Source of the DNA: Streptomyces celluloflavus
GTDB lineage: Bacteria; Actinomycetota; Actinomycetes; Streptomycetales; Streptomycetaceae
Direction: 5' to 3'
Length of the DNA stretch: 64,000 nt
Assembly: GCA_000720995.1 (NCBI GenBank)
Contig: JOEL01000033.1
Coordinates: 1 to 64,000, forward strand
The position numbers and the translations under genes are program-made. Below the pieces are notes generated by a model. The model was given only the letters and a program-made list of their open reading frames with translations. It was not told the DNA's origin and ran no database searches. Of this stretch, positions 33,038 through 40,914 are shown one piece after another. How positions within the stretch are numbered: the stretch's first letter is position 1; every line of letters begins with the position of its first letter.

Positions 33038-33574
33038 ATGAGCTTTGTGGGTCGTAAGACCGTCGCGGTGATGGCCGCGGCGTTGGCGTCGTTGGGCGCG
33101 GGGAGCGGTGTCACCGCGTCGGCGGCCACCCCGTCGGCGTCGTGCAGTGGGGCGGAATGCCCCAGCCTGAAGCCGACCAGGCTCACGACCAGCCAGGCCA
33201 CCCTGAACGTCACTCAGATGCAACTGGAGAACATCCAGGCGATGGCGTCCGACGCGGTGACCGGGGAGCCCATCCGCGGTGCGAAGATCGTGTTCGCCAC
33301 CATCGGCGGCCGGACGCTGGGGGCGGCCTACACCGACTACGACGGTGTGGCCGCGATCACGGCTCCGGAGAACCTGGGTCCCGGAACCCTCCAGGAGTTG
33401 CTGGGAGGCTACGAAGCCGCGATGGTCGGCGACGGTGTCCACGCCCCGGTCGGGGCCCACGGAGCGATCACGGTCGGCACCGACCAGGGCCCCGGTGTCC
33501 CGAACTCCCCGTGCGCCATTTGCAGTGATCGCGGGCTCAAGCAAGACGTGGTCCCGGTCGACTGGAGCCGGTGA
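33038..33574 (+). CDS. Secreted protein ending in a peptidase-S74-like catalytic segment
   Basis: This is a 178-residue protein. Residues 1-30 are a signal peptide (RKTVAVMAAALASLGAGSGV). The middle (about 55-140) looks like a beta-rich Ig-like or invasin-type domain (DAVTGEPIRGAKIVF, AYTDYDGVAAITAPENL). The C-terminus is CAICSDRGLKQDVVPVDWSR. SDRGLK fits the S-D-x-x-x-K signature of S74 intramolecular chaperones of phage tail spikes, with Ser163 as nucleophile and Lys168 as its partner. The rest of that chaperone fold is encoded by the next, overlapping gene. The ATG has AGGGGAG 5 nt upstream. Confidence 0.75.
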   Translation: MSFVGRKTVAVMAAALASLGAGSGVTASAATPSASCSGAECPSLKPTRLTTSQATLNVTQMQLENIQAMASDAVTGEPIRGAKIVFATIGGRTLGAAYTDYDGVAAITAPENLGPGTLQELLGGYEAAMVGDGVHAPVGAHGAITVGTDQGPGVPNSPCAICSDRGLKQDVVPVDWSR

Positions 33575-33957
33575 GGGTGCGGATCTTCCACCGGCGGTCC
33601 CGGGCGGCCGACCGCGGTGCCCTGGCCCGTCGTTCGGCCGGTGGGCGGGAGAGCGGTGCGGTGGCTCCGGTCGGTGCGGTCAACGGCTACGCGGTGCTGG
33701 AGGCCGTGGCCGCGCTGCCCGTCAGTACCTGGCGATACCTCTGGGAGCCCGAAGAGGTGCGCCACCTCGGGCCGATGGCGCAGGACTGGCACGCTGCCTT
33801 CGGCTTCAACCAGGACGACACCACCATTCCCGTCGTCGACGGCCTCGGCGTCGCCCTGGTGTGCGTCCAGGCACTGCACCGCCGCGTGGAGGAGCTCACG
33901 GCCGAAGTGGATCGGCTGCGAGAAGCCGCGAGCGCGCACGCGCCCGACGCCGTGTGA
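33571..33957 (+). CDS. S74-type intramolecular-chaperone C-terminal part as a separate protein
   Basis: This is a 128-residue protein. After about 45 basic, low-complexity residues, NGYAVLEAVAALPVSTWRY, VRHLGPMAQDWHAAFGF and DDTTIPVVDGLGVALVCVQA follow. These match the body of S74/tail-fibre chaperone domains that normally continue directly from SDRxLK. The end is a coiled coil (LHRRVEELTAEVDRLREAAS). The GTG start overlaps the previous stop by 4 nt (GTGA). No signal peptide is visible, so the two halves may not share a compartment. Either the gene is split on purpose, or an old frameshift has been stabilised. Confidence 0.7.
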   Translation: MRVRIFHRRSRAADRGALARRSAGGRESGAVAPVGAVNGYAVLEAVAALPVSTWRYLWEPEEVRHLGPMAQDWHAAFGFNQDDTTIPVVDGLGVALVCVQALHRRVEELTAEVDRLREAASAHAPDAV

Positions 33958-34113: not shown

Positions 34114-34842
34114 ATGACAAAGCGGGACACCTTGGCGCGGCGCGACACCGTGGCGGATCCGTCCGAGGCGGTGGATCAGCTGTCGCCGGTGGGTACGGGC
34201 GCGATCTGGCGGCTTCCGGTGACGGTCTGCCGCATCACCCAGTTCCTGGGTGAGCGGACGGCCGGCGCCCTACTGGAGCGCGCCATCGCCGCCGCCGGCG
34301 ACACGTCGAAGCCCTCCATGATTCGGGACCGGGAGGTGGCCCCCGACGTTCGCCGGTCCCGGTCGTGCCAGGACTTCGCCGCGCCTGAGTTGCTGGCGGC
34401 CATCGATGAGGTACTGGAGGCGGTCGAGCACACTCTGGGGGTCTCCTGCCGGTACACCGAACCCCACTACAGCCTCAACCTGCACAATGACGGCGACTTC
34501 TACCGGCCGCACCAGGACACCAGCGCCGAGTTCGCTCCCCGGCGTCTGCTCACATTCGTGTACTACCTGCATCGCACTCCCCGGCCTTTCAACGGGGGCG
34601 AGCTGCGGGTGTTCGACGCCGCCATGCCGCTGCACACCGGGACAACCGGAAAGTGGGCGGAGCGCACCTGGCGGGACTGGGCGCCCGAGCACGACAGCAT
34701 CGTGTTCTTCCGCCCCACCGCCTGGCACGAGGTACGGCCGGTCAGCTGCCCGAGCAAGCAGCGCGCGGACAGCCGCTTCGCCGTCAACGGCTGGCTGTGC
34801 AGCCCCGACCCCGCGCACCGCGGGAAGGACGCGAGCCGGTGA
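34114..34842 (+). CDS. 2-oxoglutarate/Fe(II) dioxygenase, prolyl-4-hydroxylase-like
   Basis: This is a 242-residue cupin-fold dioxygenase. The iron triad is His133 and Asp135 in FYRPHQDTS with His205 in TAWHEVRPV, and Arg221 (SRFAVNGWL) would hold 2-oxoglutarate. YSLNLHNDGDFY and RLLTFVYYLH frame the site, as in P4H-type enzymes and PKHD oxygenases. The N-terminal 40 residues are not conserved-looking. It lies 156 bp after the split S74-like pair on the same strand. A link, such as hydroxylating that secreted protein or a natural product, is speculation. The ATG is in a fair context. Confidence 0.85.
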   Translation: MTKRDTLARRDTVADPSEAVDQLSPVGTGAIWRLPVTVCRITQFLGERTAGALLERAIAAAGDTSKPSMIRDREVAPDVRRSRSCQDFAAPELLAAIDEVLEAVEHTLGVSCRYTEPHYSLNLHNDGDFYRPHQDTSAEFAPRRLLTFVYYLHRTPRPFNGGELRVFDAAMPLHTGTTGKWAERTWRDWAPEHDSIVFFRPTAWHEVRPVSCPSKQRADSRFAVNGWLCSPDPAHRGKDASR

Positions 34843-35056: not shown

Positions 35057-36079
35057 GTGAAGATCCCCCGCCTTCTGGACGGCCGGCTGAAGTTCCGCCA
35101 TCTGGTGCTCGTCGATGCGCTCTGCCGGCAGGGGAGTGTCGTCGGTGCCGCCGCGGAGCTGCATGTGACGCAGCCGGCGGCGACGCGCAGTCTGCACGAG
35201 CTGGAGGACATCCTCGGGGTTCCGCTGTTCGAACGCGGGCCCCGGGGGATCACCGCCACGGTCTTCGGGGAGGCGTTCACCGAGCATGCCCGTGCCGTGC
35301 TCGCCCAGTTGGCGCAGGCGGGCCGTCATGTGGTCGAGCTGGCCGACGCCGACCGCGGAACGGTGATCGTCGGCACGCACCTGGCCGGATCCAATGTGCT
35401 CCTCCCACGGGCCATCGCCGCGCTCAAGAAGGAACGCCCGTATCTGACGGTGGTCGTCCGGGAGGCGTCGCCCGAGGCGCTGCTGCTGGAGCTGGAGGCG
35501 GGCCGGGTCGACTTCATCGTCGGCCGGCTGACCGTCCCCTCCGACGAGCGGATCGTGCGCCGCAAGCTCTACGACGAGTCGGTCGAACTGGTGGTCCGGG
35601 CGTCGCACGCGCTCGCCGGGCGGCCGAATGTGGATCTCGCGGATCTGGCGGACTATCCGTGGATCCTGCCGGGGGCGGAGACCGCCCTGCGGCGGGAGAT
35701 CGAGGAGTTCTTCGCCCGGCACGGGATCGCGCTGCCGATGAACCGCGTCGAGACCACGTCGTTCCTGACGGTGCGGCAACTGCTGCTGGAGACCGATGTC
35801 GTCGCGGCGCTGCCCAGCCTGATCACCCGGGACGACACCCGGATCGCCCGCCTGTCGGTCCCGTTGGAGCCGATCGGGCACAGCGTCGGGCTGACCCTGC
35901 CGGCCGCCCGCACGCTGAGCCCGTCCGCCGAGGCCTTGATCCGGAGCCTTGAGGAGATCGCGGCCGGGATGGCGCCCCAGGACACGTCCGCGGACGTACC
36001 CGGAGAGGCCCCCGGAGGGGCGTCCGGGAACGCGGGCGGAGGTGCCTCCGGCGGGGATTCCGAAGGCACCTCCTGTTAG
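35057..36079 (+). CDS. LysR-family regulator, probable controller of the 3-hydroxyanthranilate operon
   Basis: This is a 340-residue LTTR. The winged HTH is at about 12-70 (LKFRHLVLVDALCRQGSVVG, AAELHVTQPAATRSLHELE). The co-inducer domain spans 95-300 (GTVIVGTHLAGSNVLLPRAI). The last 35 residues are a Gly/Pro/Glu-rich tail. The GTG start has only a weak GGGG upstream. Its stop lies 77 bp from the end of the convergent eight-gene catabolic operon. In this pathway regulators often respond to an aromatic intermediate; control of the operon is inferred from position. Confidence 0.9.
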   Translation: MKIPRLLDGRLKFRHLVLVDALCRQGSVVGAAAELHVTQPAATRSLHELEDILGVPLFERGPRGITATVFGEAFTEHARAVLAQLAQAGRHVVELADADRGTVIVGTHLAGSNVLLPRAIAALKKERPYLTVVVREASPEALLLELEAGRVDFIVGRLTVPSDERIVRRKLYDESVELVVRASHALAGRPNVDLADLADYPWILPGAETALRREIEEFFARHGIALPMNRVETTSFLTVRQLLLETDVVAALPSLITRDDTRIARLSVPLEPIGHSVGLTLPAARTLSPSAEALIRSLEEIAAGMAPQDTSADVPGEAPGGASGNAGGGASGGDSEGTSC

Positions 36080-36155
36080 ACCGCTGGCCCGCTGGCCCGC
36101 TGGCCTGATGGCCCGTTGGACCGGCCAAGGCGCCTGCCGTCAGCCCGGCGTACCG

Positions 36156-37157
36156 TCAGCTCCCGGCAAGGCCCAGGAAGCGTTCCGCGTTGCCGCGGGT
36201 GATCAGTTGGCGGCCGGTGTCGTCGAGGAACCGGCTCTTGCGGACGACGTCGCCGACCGGGCGTTCGCCCAGCGGATACGGGTAGTCGCTGCCCACCATC
36301 ACACGGTCCGCGCCGACCGTGTCGACCAGCAGCCGCAGGGCGCGGTCGTCGAAGACGACCGAGTCGACGTAGAAGCGGCCCAGGTAGTGCGAGGGCGGGA
36401 ACTCCGAGGTGCCGATGACGTCGTGGCGGCCGTGCCACGCGTTCTCCATCCGGCCGAGCCAGAAGGCGAACGATCCGCCGCCGTGGGCGAAGCAGATCTT
36501 CAGGCTCTCGTCGATCCGGTCGAAGACGCCGCCCAGGATCAGGGCGAGGATCGACAGATGGGTCTCGGCGGGCATCGCGGTGAGCCACTGCGCCATCCAG
36601 CGGTCGAGCCGCGGCGAACTGGCCATGTCCCACGGGTGCACGAACACCGGTACGTCCAGCGACGCGCAGTGCTGGAGGAAGGTGACCACGCCCTCGCTGT
36701 CGAGGTCGAGATCGCCTACGTGGTTGCCGATCTCGACGCCGCGGTGCCCGTTGGCGACGCACCTCTCCAGCTCACGGCAGGCCGCGTCGGGGTCCTGCAA
36801 CGGCACCTGGCAGAACGGGATGAGCCGGTCCGGCGCGGGCGCGACGATCTCCAGCGCGAGGTCGTTGAAGATCCGCGCGACCTTCGCCGCCTGCTCGCCG
36901 CTGCGCCCGTAGGTGAAGAACGCCGGCGTCGGGGAGACGACCTGGGTCTGTACGCCGTCGGCGTCCATGTCCCGCAGCCGTGTGCCGGCGTCCCAGCAGT
37001 CGGCCTGGATCCGGCGGAACTCCTTCGAGCCCATCATGATCATGGCTTCGGATTCGGACTCGATCCGCAGCCACGGCGCGTCGGGTCCGGCCTCGGCCCG
37101 CAGATCGGGCCAGCCGCGCGGCACATAGTGGGTGTGGATGTCGATCATGCGGTCCAC
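36156..37157 (-). CDS. 2-amino-3-carboxymuconate-6-semialdehyde decarboxylase (ACMSD)
   Basis: This is a 333-residue amidohydrolase-superfamily enzyme. It removes CO2 from the ring-opened product of 3-hydroxyanthranilate, diverting it from quinolinate. Zn ligands are visible in MIDIHTHYVP (HxH), VFVHPWDM and VGSDYPYPLG, with Arg/His residues in FAHGGGSFAFWLGR. The GTG at 37157 has GGAAAGG 6 nt upstream; an ATG 9 bp further in is possible. It is the last gene of the operon, 2 bp after the dioxygenase stop. The length matches bacterial ACMSD (NbaD). Confidence 0.93.
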   Translation of the reverse strand: MDRMIDIHTHYVPRGWPDLRAEAGPDAPWLRIESESEAMIMMGSKEFRRIQADCWDAGTRLRDMDADGVQTQVVSPTPAFFTYGRSGEQAAKVARIFNDLALEIVAPAPDRLIPFCQVPLQDPDAACRELERCVANGHRGVEIGNHVGDLDLDSEGVVTFLQHCASLDVPVFVHPWDMASSPRLDRWMAQWLTAMPAETHLSILALILGGVFDRIDESLKICFAHGGGSFAFWLGRMENAWHGRHDVIGTSEFPPSHYLGRFYVDSVVFDDRALRLLVDTVGADRVMVGSDYPYPLGERPVGDVVRKSRFLDDTGRQLITRGNAERFLGLAGS

Positions 37158-37159
37158 GG

Positions 37160-37681
37160 TCAGCCTTTCCCCGGATGCAGGGCGCCGCACTGGGGGCAGA
37201 CCCGCGCCTTCTCGTTCTCGTAGAACTCGGTGAAGACCGGCGGCAGGTCCTCGACGATGTCCCGGACCTGCAACTCGATCTCGTGGATCAGCGCGGCGCA
37301 GTCGAGGCAGTACCACTGGAACTTCTCCAGGGTGCCCTCTTCCCGGACCCGCTCGATGACCAGGCCGATCGATCCGGCGTCGGGCCGTTGCGGGGAGTGC
37401 GGGAGGTCACCGGGGAGCAGCCATGCCTGGCCCTCCCTGATGTGCACGGTCTGCGGTCCTTCCGCGGTCATGACGTTGACGTGCATATCGCCCTTGACCT
37501 GGTAGAACCACTCCTCGTACGGGTCGAGGTGGTAGTCGGTGCGCTGGTTGGGCCCGCCGACCACCTGGACGATGAAGTCCTTGCCCAGGAACATGGTCTT
37601 GTTGTTCACCGGGGGCTTGAGCAGGTGCTCGTTCTCGGTGATCCATCCCTGGAAATCGATGACCTGGGGAATGCCGGTCAT
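37160..37681 (-). CDS. 3-hydroxyanthranilate 3,4-dioxygenase
   Basis: This is a 173-residue cupin, an Fe(II) extradiol-type ring-cleaving enzyme (NbaC/HAAO). The iron ligands His51, Glu57 and His95 and the substrate residues Arg47 and Arg99 fall at the positions known from the bacterial enzyme. The C-terminal rubredoxin-like site has two CxxC pairs, CLDC and CPQC, found in bacterial and fungal forms. It makes 2-amino-3-carboxymuconate semialdehyde, the substrate of the next gene. Its ATG overlaps the RidA stop by 4 nt. Confidence 0.97.
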
Positions 37682-38169
37682 GAGAGCACCTCCGTGCCGT
37701 TCGACGTGCGTGGCTGGTTGTTCCGCGGCAAATGGGCGATGGCCTGGATCTCGATCAGCAGGTGCGGGTGCGGCAGTTGGTGCACCGCGACGGTCGTCCG
37801 CGTCGGTCCCTGTTCGTCGAAGTACTCGCCGTAGACCTCGTTGTAGCCGCCGAAGTCGTTCATGGACACCAGATAGGTGGTGATCTGGGCGACGTCGGAG
37901 AGGTCCGCGCCCACCTCGGCGAGGATGCCCCGGATGTTCTCGATCACCGCGCGGGTCTGCGCCCGGATGTCGAGGCGGGTGGTGCCGAGTTCGTCGGCCT
38001 CGACGCCCACGAAGGTGTTGTCGGGCCGGCGCGAGCTGGTGCCGGAGACGAAGACCAGGTCGCCGACGACCTTCACATGCGGGAAGCGTCCGCGTGGCGT
38101 GGCCCGTCCCGCCAGTACCCGTGAACCGCTCGGTGTCCCCGTGCTGTCCGGTATCCCCGAAGCGCTCAT
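37678..38169 (-). CDS. RidA-family 2-aminomuconate deaminase
   Basis: This is a 163-residue YjgF/YER057c/RidA-type protein. In this pathway such proteins hydrolyse 2-aminomuconate to 4-oxalocrotonate plus ammonia (NbaF/AmnD-like). Family blocks are [59 protein letters not shown] and [20 protein letters not shown], with the Arg of PTRTTV and the late Glu that hold the carboxylate. The first 20 residues are an extra Ser/Gly-rich stretch. The start ATG at 38169 overlaps the previous stop by 1 nt; a longer frame exists but reads into the neighbour. Confidence 0.93.
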
Positions 38170-38933
38170 CACAGTCCCTTCAACGTGACGGATCCGATGC
38201 CCGCCACCTCGCACGTGGTGACCCCGGCCGCCAGTGGCACCGCCGCCGTCGCCGCGCCCGCGAGCACCACCTGTCCGGCGCGCAGCGGGATGCGCCGGCG
38301 TCGGCACATGTCCAGCAGCGCGTGCAGCGCGTGGACGGGGTCGCCGAGGATGGCGGCGGTCGAGCCGACCGCCTCCGTCTCCCCGGTACGCAGCCGCACC
38401 GCCCGGTTGGCCACGCTCTCGACGGGGCGCCAGGGGCCGATGACGAAGCCTGCGGCCGAGGTGTTGTCCGCGACGACGTCGGTGTAGGTGAACCGGAAGT
38501 CCCGGTACCGCGAGTCGATGATCTCGATCGCCGGTGCCAGCGCGTCCACGCAGGACTCGATGTCCGTCAGGGGGTCGTCCAGGTCCACGTCACGGCAGAG
38601 CCGGTAGGCGACCTCGGGCTCCGCCTTCGGGTGGATGAAACGGGACAGGTCGACATCGTCGCCGTCCGCGATGCGCATCTCGTCGGTGAGCCGGCCGACG
38701 ATCACGTCGGAGACGCCCATCTGCGCCATCTTGGCCTTGCTGGTGAAGCCCAGCTTGACCCCCACGATCCGCTCGCCGCGCGCCTCCCGGCGCGCCAGCA
38801 GCGCCGCCTGGATCGCGTAGGCGTCGTCGATGCCGAACTCATGGGTGTCGGCGAGGCTCGGGGTGTCGGTCCGGGACGTCTGCGCCGTGTCCAGCCGCTC
38901 CGCGAGAACGCCGATGGTTTCTGCCGGGGTCAC
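38169..38933 (-). CDS. 4-oxalocrotonate decarboxylase (2-oxo-3-hexenedioate decarboxylase)
   Basis: This is a 254-residue enzyme of the fumarylacetoacetase/hydratase superfamily. It decarboxylates oxalocrotonate to 2-oxopent-4-enoate with Mg2+ (NbaG/DmpH/XylI). Metal-site blocks are [35 protein letters not shown] (Glu ligands) and [20 protein letters not shown]. It is paralogous to the hydratase at 40911 but lacks that enzyme's FQPDFGVL segment. The operon order beside the hydratase and the RidA-type deaminase supports decarboxylase rather than hydratase. It is coupled to the next gene by a 1-nt overlap and to the aldolase by 4 nt. Confidence 0.9.
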
Positions 38934-39961
38934 TTGCCGCTCCCGTCGGTCGGGGCCGCGCCGCGCGCGGCCAGGTCCAGTGCGATGTCCACGATCAGGT
39001 CCTCCTGGCCGCCGACCATCTGGCGCCGGCCGGCCTCCAGCAGGATCTGCCGGGTGTCGAGCCCATAGCGTTCGGCGGCGCGTTCGGCGTGCAGCAGGAA
39101 GCTGGAGTAGACACCGGCGTAGCCGAGGGTGAGGGTCTCGCGGTCCACCTGCACCGGGCGGTTGCGCAGCGGGCGGACGATGTCGTCGGCGGCGTCCTGC
39201 AACGCGAACAGGTCGCAGCCGTGCTCCCAGCCCAGGAGGTCGGCGACCGCGATGAACGGCTCCGCCGGGCAGTTCCCGGCCCCGGCGCCCTGGCCCGCCA
39301 GCGCCACATCGACGCGGTACGCGCCGTGCTCCACGGCGGTCACGCTGTTGGCGACGGACAGGGAGAGGTTCTCGTGGGCGTGGATGCCGATCTCGGTGTC
39401 GTCGTCCAGCACCTGGCGGTAGGCGTCGACCCGCTCGGCCACGTCCCGCATCGTCAGGCGCCCGCCCGAGTCCGTGACGTACACGCAGTGGGCGCCGTAG
39501 GACTCCATCAGCGCCGCCTGCCGGGCGAGGTCACCGGGGGAGTTCAGATGGCTCATCATCAGGAATCCCGACACATCCATCCCGTTCTCCCGGGCCCAGG
39601 CGATGTGCTGCGCGCTGACGTCGGCCTCGGTGCAGTGGGTGGCGACGCGTACGCTCCACACGCCGAGGGCGTGCGCCCGGCGCAGATGCTCGATGGTGCC
39701 GATCCCGGGCAGCAGGAGGGTGGTCAGCTTCGCGTTCCGTACGCAGTCGGCGGCGGCCTCGATCCACTCCTCGTCGCTGTGCGCGCCGAAACCGTAGTTC
39801 GCGCTCGATCCGCCGAGGCCGTCACCGTGCGCGACCTCGATGGCCGCGACTCCGGCCCGGTCCAGCGCGGACACGATCCGGCGCACCTGGTCGACGGTGT
39901 ACATGTGCCCCATCGCATGCATGCCGTCGCGCAGGGTCACGTCCTGCACATAGATCTTCAT
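38930..39961 (-). CDS. 4-hydroxy-2-oxovalerate (HOA) aldolase
   Basis: This is a 343-residue DmpG-type metal-dependent aldolase. It splits 4-hydroxy-2-oxovalerate into pyruvate and acetaldehyde. [16 protein letters not shown] carries the catalytic Arg-Asp, and [15 protein letters not shown] the HxH metal ligands. The C-terminal communication domain ends with [20 protein letters not shown]. Acetaldehyde is normally channelled to the partner dehydrogenase, encoded just upstream with a 4-nt overlap (ATGA). The ATG at 39961 was chosen over one at 39973, which has no room for a ribosome-binding site. Confidence 0.95.
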
Positions 39962-40914
39962 GCGTTCACCCATCCTCGGAGTGTGGCGATCTTCTCGGCG
40001 GTCCGGACCGCGGCGGAGGTCATGATGTCGAGGTTGCCGGCGTAGTCGGGCAGGTAGTGGCCCGCGCCGAGCACCTCCAGGAACACCGAGACCTTGACCC
40101 CGGTGAAGCGCCGTCCCAGGGCGGGGACGACGGTGTCCTCGACGGGGTCGAACTGCACGTCCTGCTTGAGCGAGTAGCCGGGTACGTACTCCTGGACGGC
40201 CGCGGCCATCTGCCGTACGGAGGCGGCGATCCGCTCCCGGTCCTCGGGCGTCAGGGCGCCCTCCACGAGGCACAGCACCGTGTCGCGCATGGCGATCGGG
40301 GGCTCGGCGGGGTTGAGCACGATGATGGCCTTGCCCACCGAGGCGCCGCCGACCACGCGGATCGCCTCGCTGGTGGTCTCGGTGAACTCGTCGATATTGG
40401 CCCGGGTGCCCGGCCCGGCCGACTTCGAGGAGATGGAGGCGACGATCTCGCCGTACGCCACCGGGGCGATCCGGGAGATCGCGGCGACGACGGGGATGGT
40501 GGCCTGGCCGCCGCACGTCACCATGTTGACGTCGGGGGCGGCCAGGTGCTCGTCCAGGTTGACCGACGGCACCACGAACGGACCCAGGGCCGCGGGGGTC
40601 AGATCGACCATCAGCTTCCCGTGCTCCCGCGCGATCTCGGCGTTGCGCACATGGGCCTTGGCGGAGGTCGCGTCGAAGATCACCTTGATGTCGGCGAACT
40701 CGGGCAGGCCGACGAGTCCGTCGATACCGCGGTGGGTGGTGGCGATCTTCAGCCGGGCGGCGCGGGCGAGCCCGTCGGAGTCCGGGTCGATGCCGACCAT
40801 CGCGCCCATGCGCAGCGTCTTCGACAGCCGCATCACCTTGATCATCAGGTCGGTTCCGATGTTGCCGGAGCCGATGACGGCGACCGGGATGGTGCCGGAT
40901 GCTGTGGAGCTCAC
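39958..40914 (-). CDS. Acetaldehyde dehydrogenase (acylating)
   Basis: This is a 318-residue DmpF/MhpF-type enzyme that converts acetaldehyde, NAD+ and CoA to acetyl-CoA. The Rossmann motif is [18 protein letters not shown] near the N-terminus. The catalytic Cys is in [34 protein letters not shown] and [20 protein letters not shown] are family signatures. The start is GTG 40914, with GAGGAGGAAACC upstream, overlapping the hydratase stop by 4 nt (GTGA). It forms the bifunctional complex with the following aldolase. Confidence 0.96.

Follow-up and report, generated by a model that had tools for sequence, protein, structure and literature searches.

The S74 domains, also known as intramolecular chaperone auto-processing (ICA) domains, are described as intramolecular: the catalytic Ser-Lys strand and the chaperone body belong to one chain. 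In MyRF, the segment with the cleavage site is described as a cable that runs through a donut of six strands (PMC8326128). Both the Ser and the Lys are essential, as either S587A or K592A abolishes cleavage, and cutting occurs only in the trimer (PMC8326128). Here, we describe a pair of genes from Streptomyces celluloflavus in which the two parts of an S74 domain are found in separate proteins. The pair is located at positions 33038-33957 of the first 64,000 nucleotides of contig JOEL01000033.1, and this stretch of 64,000 nucleotides is referred to as the window. Gene 1 encodes a secreted-looking protein, the client, that ends in the catalytic strand (the tail), and gene 2 encodes the body. 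The strand and the body are not on one polypeptide, as a stop codon separates them both in the window and in 66 relatives. The two genes are conserved as a pair, the tail and the body are under purifying selection, and the Ser and Lys are kept across different types of clients, without any conserved frameshift or readthrough. This agrees with the original prediction of an S74 domain split over two coupled genes. Each half is a member of the S74 family, and the split recurs widely among relatives. The features of the pair, all on the plus strand, are as follows.

33038-33574, plus strand: gene 1, the client, with an ATG start and 178 residues; a probable signal peptide, an immunoglobulin/macroglobulin (Ig/MG)-like domain and the C-terminal S74 tail.
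33524-33571, plus strand: the 16-residue tail SDRGLKQDVVPVDWSR, the first strand of the S74 domain as judged from the sequence, the relatives and the ratio of non-synonymous to synonymous substitutions (dN/dS 0.18).
33524-33526, plus strand: codon of Ser163, equivalent to MyRF S587 and endoNF S911 by motif spacing.
33539-33541, plus strand: codon of Lys168, equivalent to MyRF K592 and endoNF K916 by motif spacing.
33564-33567, plus strand: GGAG within the Trp-Ser codons of the tail, a candidate ribosome-binding site of gene 2, 9 nt before GTG 33577.
33571-33574, plus strand: GTGA stop-start overlap of the two genes, with gene 2 in the -1 frame.
33577-33957, plus strand: gene 2, the S74 body without the catalytic tail; 126 residues from GTG 33577 or 128 from GTG 33571.
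33577-33681, plus strand: N-terminal linker of gene 2, Arg-rich and variable (dN/dS 0.70), with lower confidence in the AlphaFold2 (AF2) model of relative L069.
33688-33801, plus strand: core match of gene 2 to PF13884, followed by a coiled-coil-like C-terminal helix, which is a long helix in the AF2 model of L069.

Read directly from the sequence, gene 1 ends with CSDRGLKQDVVPVDWSR, which contains Ser163 and Lys168; the longer stretch up to the stop codon is NSPCAICSDRGLKQDVVPVDWSR. Ser and Lys are thus present at the S-x4-K spacing, but on gene 1 rather than on gene 2, and both this sequence and the tails of the relatives confirm that the motif terminates the first protein, as predicted. Gene 2 is matched by Peptidase_S74 (PF13884) in Pfam with an E-value of 2.3e-6 and 28.2 bits (cut-off 22). 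However, the match spans only profile positions 14-53 of 58, corresponding to residues 40-77 of gene 2. Since it begins at position 14, positions 1-13, which contain the Ser-Lys motif, are assigned to gene 1. In the fused relatives L111 and L117, the PF13884 match starts at position 1. Within gene 2, about 38 residues precede the S74-like part, and not about 45 as first thought.

The N-terminus of gene 1 is signal-peptide-like when judged by eye, and its domain is weakly similar to bMG3 (E-value 1.2e-4 in the Pfam scan, under the cut-off). The client is secreted-looking, whereas the body is cytosolic-looking. Inspection of the client N-termini by eye did not reveal a consistent twin-arginine (Tat) motif, and joint Tat export of the client and the body was rejected. 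A scan of both proteins against NCBIfam returned no families, and in its own genome each gene has a single match at an E-value of 0.001.

The GTDB genomes were scanned with an alignment of gene 2. This gave 495 relatives, from which the best 80 were retained, chosen by similarity of the body only. Among these 80, 73 are from Actinomycetota, six from other named groups and one from a bacterium (L119). An upstream open reading frame (ORF) ends with the tail in 66 of the 80 loci, all actinobacterial (66 of 73). As the loci were picked by similarity to gene 2 alone, this pairing of tail and body is not due to chance. The tail is 16 residues long in 63 of the 66 loci and 15 in the other three, and it typically reads S-[DN]-x3-K-x2-[VI]-x2-V-x-W-x-R. 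Ser, Lys and Trp are found in all 66 loci, which have 44 distinct tails, and the residue before the Ser is of 11 kinds. The expression used to find the tails demanded the Lys and permitted Ser/Thr/Cys, Asp/Asn, Val/Ile/Leu and Trp/Ser at their respective places, so the count for Lys is conditioned on the expression. The account of all 73 actinobacterial loci is unconditioned, as the seven missed loci were read individually. Of these, two (L111 and L117) are fused, and L109 is of this type too, but its frame is broken. In the split tail of L120, Cys replaces Ser, L070 lacks the motif and looks degenerate, L097 is truncated by the end of the contig and L114 is a fragment. A Cys at the position of the catalytic Ser is seen in the split tail of L120 and also in the fused S74 proteins L119 and L121.

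The seven remaining relatives of the 80 (L110, L112, L113, L115, L116, L118 and L119) are single chains, and all ten relatives on viral contigs are single open frames. From this it follows that both halves derive from one domain. As a control, 131 sequences (1.21 Mb, both strands, with some loci fetched repeatedly) were searched for the tail. The expression gave 87 matches that lie upstream of an S74 body at a distance of at most 450 nt, and none elsewhere, while a looser expression (S/T/C, D/N, K and 8-10 residues to the stop) gave 87 near a body and 16 elsewhere.

The split is also found when the search starts from the Pfam family. In a second sample, 147 genomes of the order were searched by PF13884 alone, giving 13 matches in 12 genomes. 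Seven of the 13 begin no earlier than profile position 10, and a split tail lies upstream in all seven; three of these loci (the window, G066 and G294) were already present in the earlier searches. The other six start at position 1: L157 and L159 are fused proteins of the tetratricopeptide repeat (TPR) type, and four are open frames of 444-468 residues. The original prediction had proposed to look for the same split among homologues, and it is present in 66 of 80 relatives and in 7 of 7 late-starting matches. Because it is so widespread, the split is not a sequencing error. A search of the genus (295 genomes, 22 places) gave a tail at 17 places, a shorter tail without the Trp at L040, a fused protein at L036, and no tail matching the expressions used at L037, L038 and L039. 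In a search of the phylum (396 genomes), six had matches, namely the window and L132 to L136 (L132, L133, L134, L135, L136). Here, L132 resembles L108 (see below), L134 is split with a tail that lacks the Trp, L135 is fused, and a clear tail was not found in L133. Natural fusions that have the tail Trp and a linker are the TPR proteins L036, L117, L157 and L159.

The exact start of gene 2 can be judged from the relatives in which gene 1 stops with TAG or TAA. In none of these 14 does a start of gene 2 overlap the stop codon, and in 12 the start lies 5 nt past the first base of the stop, which is the place of GTG 33577. In this set, L046 has an additional start at 2 nt, and the start is found at 6 nt in L069 and at 10 nt or later in L108. 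GTG 33577 is therefore the likelier start of gene 2 than GTG 33571. The GTGA overlap, through which the two genes were predicted to be joined, is real, but it is probably not where gene 2 starts. The Ser codon of the WSR motif in the tail is AGY in 31 of 31 loci with the Ig-type client, compared with 124 of 193 other Ser codons in the same stretches of the clients. This choice would preserve a GGAG as the candidate ribosome-binding site of gene 2. In the annotated plasmid records L150 and L151, two separate proteins are listed. The two overlap by 13 nt in L150, while gene 2 starts later in L151. Both records label the client a hypothetical protein and its neighbour a "tail fiber domain-containing protein".

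Selection on the pair was estimated with the Nei-Gojobori method, pooled over the 31 Ig-type loci (30 relatives and the window), where the pairs are not independent. The dN/dS is 0.18 for the tail, 0.25 for the body, 0.37 for the client (120 residues before the Ser) and 0.70 for the linker of gene 2. Purifying selection is stronger on the tail and the body than on the client domain or the linker. The Ig-type client is found in 13 of 392 genomes of the genus (E-value 1e-15), and 12 of the 13 also have the tail and the body (L149 is counted among these via L026, which is the same place). In the remaining genome, G014, the client is 91% identical to that of the window but has neither tail nor body, and no body is found elsewhere in the genome at an E-value of 0.001. 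This client stops exactly at the position of the Ser, which is perhaps a chance deletion junction in a single case.

In a tree of the body (86 columns), 50 of 85 inner branches are open, and the fused and split states need four changes. A single origin of the split is neither shown nor excluded by this tree. L111 from Lentzea may be the ancestral fused form and the TPR proteins may have been re-fused.

The tail is found on many unrelated, mostly short, secreted-looking or hydrophobic proteins, about a dozen kinds of clients by eye. The Ig/MG-like client occurs in the window and in 30 of the 66 loci. Further kinds, again by eye, are a secreted-looking protein of about 105 residues, Gly-Leu-rich hydrophobic peptides and a few longer proteins, while the clients in Nocardia and Microtetraspora are signal-peptide-like with little else. 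On a Rhodococcus opacus plasmid (L152), an unannotated hydrophobic ORF of 29 residues (2170-2259) ends with SDATIKHDVTPLTD ahead of the S74 body gene; its tail lacks the Trp. At 5661-5900 of L108, two small tandem ORFs with tails (SDRELKESVVAVSWN and SDHELKQDFAAVEWR) precede one S74 body gene, which looks as though two clients shared a single body. The phage S74 proteins L153, L154 and L155 are single chains with a Gly-rich hydrophobic stretch directly before the Ser-Lys motif, similar to the small actinobacterial clients.

A first fold search was dominated by the Ig-like client domain, and the S74 part was therefore predicted alone. For the tail plus body of L069, the AF2 model has a predicted local distance difference test (pLDDT) score of 88.1, with the tail strand block at 93, and a predicted template modelling (pTM) score of 0.73. 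Its best matches in PDB are solved S74 domains, with middling scores. The joined tail and body are predicted to fold like an S74 domain. Sequence searches of PDB with profile A4 and with the fused L115 gave no matches.

We suggest that the pair is probably a two-chain S74 module, in which the client contributes the strand, the body is a separate protein and cleavage before the Ser would release the client. The two-chain version was raised in the original prediction, and it fits the conserved pair of genes with both S74 halves. The steps from docking in trans to trimerisation, cleavage and release of the client can be pictured as follows. The last 16 residues of the client would be the catalytic strand, i.e., the cable, and gene 2, translated next via the stop-start junction, would provide the sheet, the helices and the C-terminal coiled coil, i.e., the donut. 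Coupled translation would bring tails and bodies together, so that the bodies could take up the tails of freshly made clients. Three tails would then enter a body trimer, and the Ser-Lys dyad in the tail would cut before Ser163. This would leave the client folded and probably trimeric, together with a spent complex of tail and body.

It can further be speculated, with somewhat less than an even chance, that this is a natural tag-and-cut system, where a C-terminal tag of 16 residues makes unrelated small proteins clients of a separate trimeric S74 body. That the body folds or holds these clients and the tag cuts itself off is an equally tentative part of this idea. If it is true, S74 proteins of actinobacteria would commonly employ an "intramolecular" chaperone between molecules, and two or more tagged clients may share a body, as the tandem tails of L108 suggest. 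A conserved two-gene S74 domain makes assembly between chains and self-cleavage directly testable, with the chaperone and the tag genetically separable. In addition, it draws attention to a group of small actinobacterial proteins, secreted-looking or hydrophobic, whose only common feature is the tail.

Alternatively, the two chains could assemble without any cutting. The tail would then be a strand for docking and trimerisation, with the body as its permanent partner or as a holdase. The Ser-Asp and the Lys could have structural roles, clients consisting of little more than a signal-peptide-like stretch and a tail would release little, and L120 has a Cys in place of the Ser. However, Ser and Lys are kept in the 44 distinct tails even though the preceding residue varies among 11 kinds in the 66 loci (with the Lys required by the expression), and in MyRF the loss of either residue abolishes cleavage (PMC8326128). 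We therefore consider this explanation unlikely, although it deserves to be taken seriously. A second alternative is that the tail prevents the activity of a small hydrophobic peptide, which may act on membranes, with the body as a coupled holdase or antitoxin-like partner and a regulated release. Many clients are indeed short with a hydrophobic stretch up to the Ser (L073, L085, L103 and L152), but the group to which the client of the window belongs (31 loci, including the window) has an Ig/MG-like domain, and G014 retains the client without a body. This makes the second alternative improbable.

Programmed -1 frameshifting or stop readthrough could produce a joined chain, and a -1/+1 frameshift product had been predicted as an option. 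Gene 2 is in the -1 frame relative to gene 1 in 62 of the 66 loci, but a 4-nt stop-start overlap yields this frame on its own, and the frame is 0 in three loci and +1 in one. The stop codon of gene 1 also varies (TGA in 52, TAG in 12 and TAA in 2), and the two annotated plasmid records list two proteins. No in-frame slippery heptamer (XXXYYYZ) is found when the final 60 nt of gene 1 are inspected in the 66 loci and the window. With both frame and stop varying and the heptamer absent from all 67 junctions, a joined chain is very improbable and was rejected. Finally, a single S74 protein could have been broken by gene decay or by a mistake in the assembly. A lone window could suggest this, and L070 and L109 do look degenerate. 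This explanation is hardly credible and was rejected for the type found in the window, as the same break occurs in 66 loci of many genera with a linker inserted at the break, and dN/dS is low on both sides of it.

The pair has few recurring neighbours. One gene that is not part of the module follows it in the window:

34114-34842, plus strand: 2OG-Fe(II) (2-oxoglutarate and iron) oxygenase gene, PF13640 with an E-value of 5.9e-18.

Relatives of this oxygenase are downstream in 13 of the 31 Ig-type loci (window included) and in none of the 36 others, as found with a crude gene caller. One is also found 3' of the client in G014 (L002), which lost the tail and the body. The oxygenase may act on the client. 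Among the genes within 4.5 kb of the 67 loci, called in the same crude way, no shared context that would give a function was found, and only the oxygenase recurs often; the next clusters of neighbours are found in three to five loci each, with mixed strands and distances. Of 12 window genes near the pair that were scanned with Pfam, none is a structural gene of an extracellular contractile injection system (eCIS); two of them have no family match, and one encodes a LuxR-type response regulator. Further downstream in the window (35057-40516), a LysR regulator gene precedes catabolic-looking genes on the minus strand, i.e., an amidohydrolase, a member of the 3-hydroxyanthranilate dioxygenase family, an L-PSP family protein and an HMGL-like protein.

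Among the matches listed in a search of the open-access full-text literature, no description of a split S74 domain was found. A described bacterial case is that of S74 genes in eCIS operons, which the authors suggest may act together with a yet unknown fibre analogue (PMC8213781). The present pair is likewise a bacterial S74 system, and a split tail is not mentioned in the part of PMC8213781 that we draw on. The ICA domain of MYRF (7DC3) differs in that MYRF is a single eukaryotic chain that releases a transcription factor. Further related systems are the fused actinobacterial S74 proteins, i.e., L111 from Lentzea and the TPR proteins L036, L117, L157 and L159, which belong to the same family but are single chains and not split. 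The phage S74/ICA domains of endoNF (3GW6), the GA-1 neck appendage (3GUD) and the T5 L-shaped tail fibre (4UW8), which rank 2 to 4 among the VIA matches, share both the Pfam family and the Ser-x4-Lys motif with the pair. However, in the phage proteins the strand and the body form one chain, while here each has its own gene and about 30 additional residues are present at the break.
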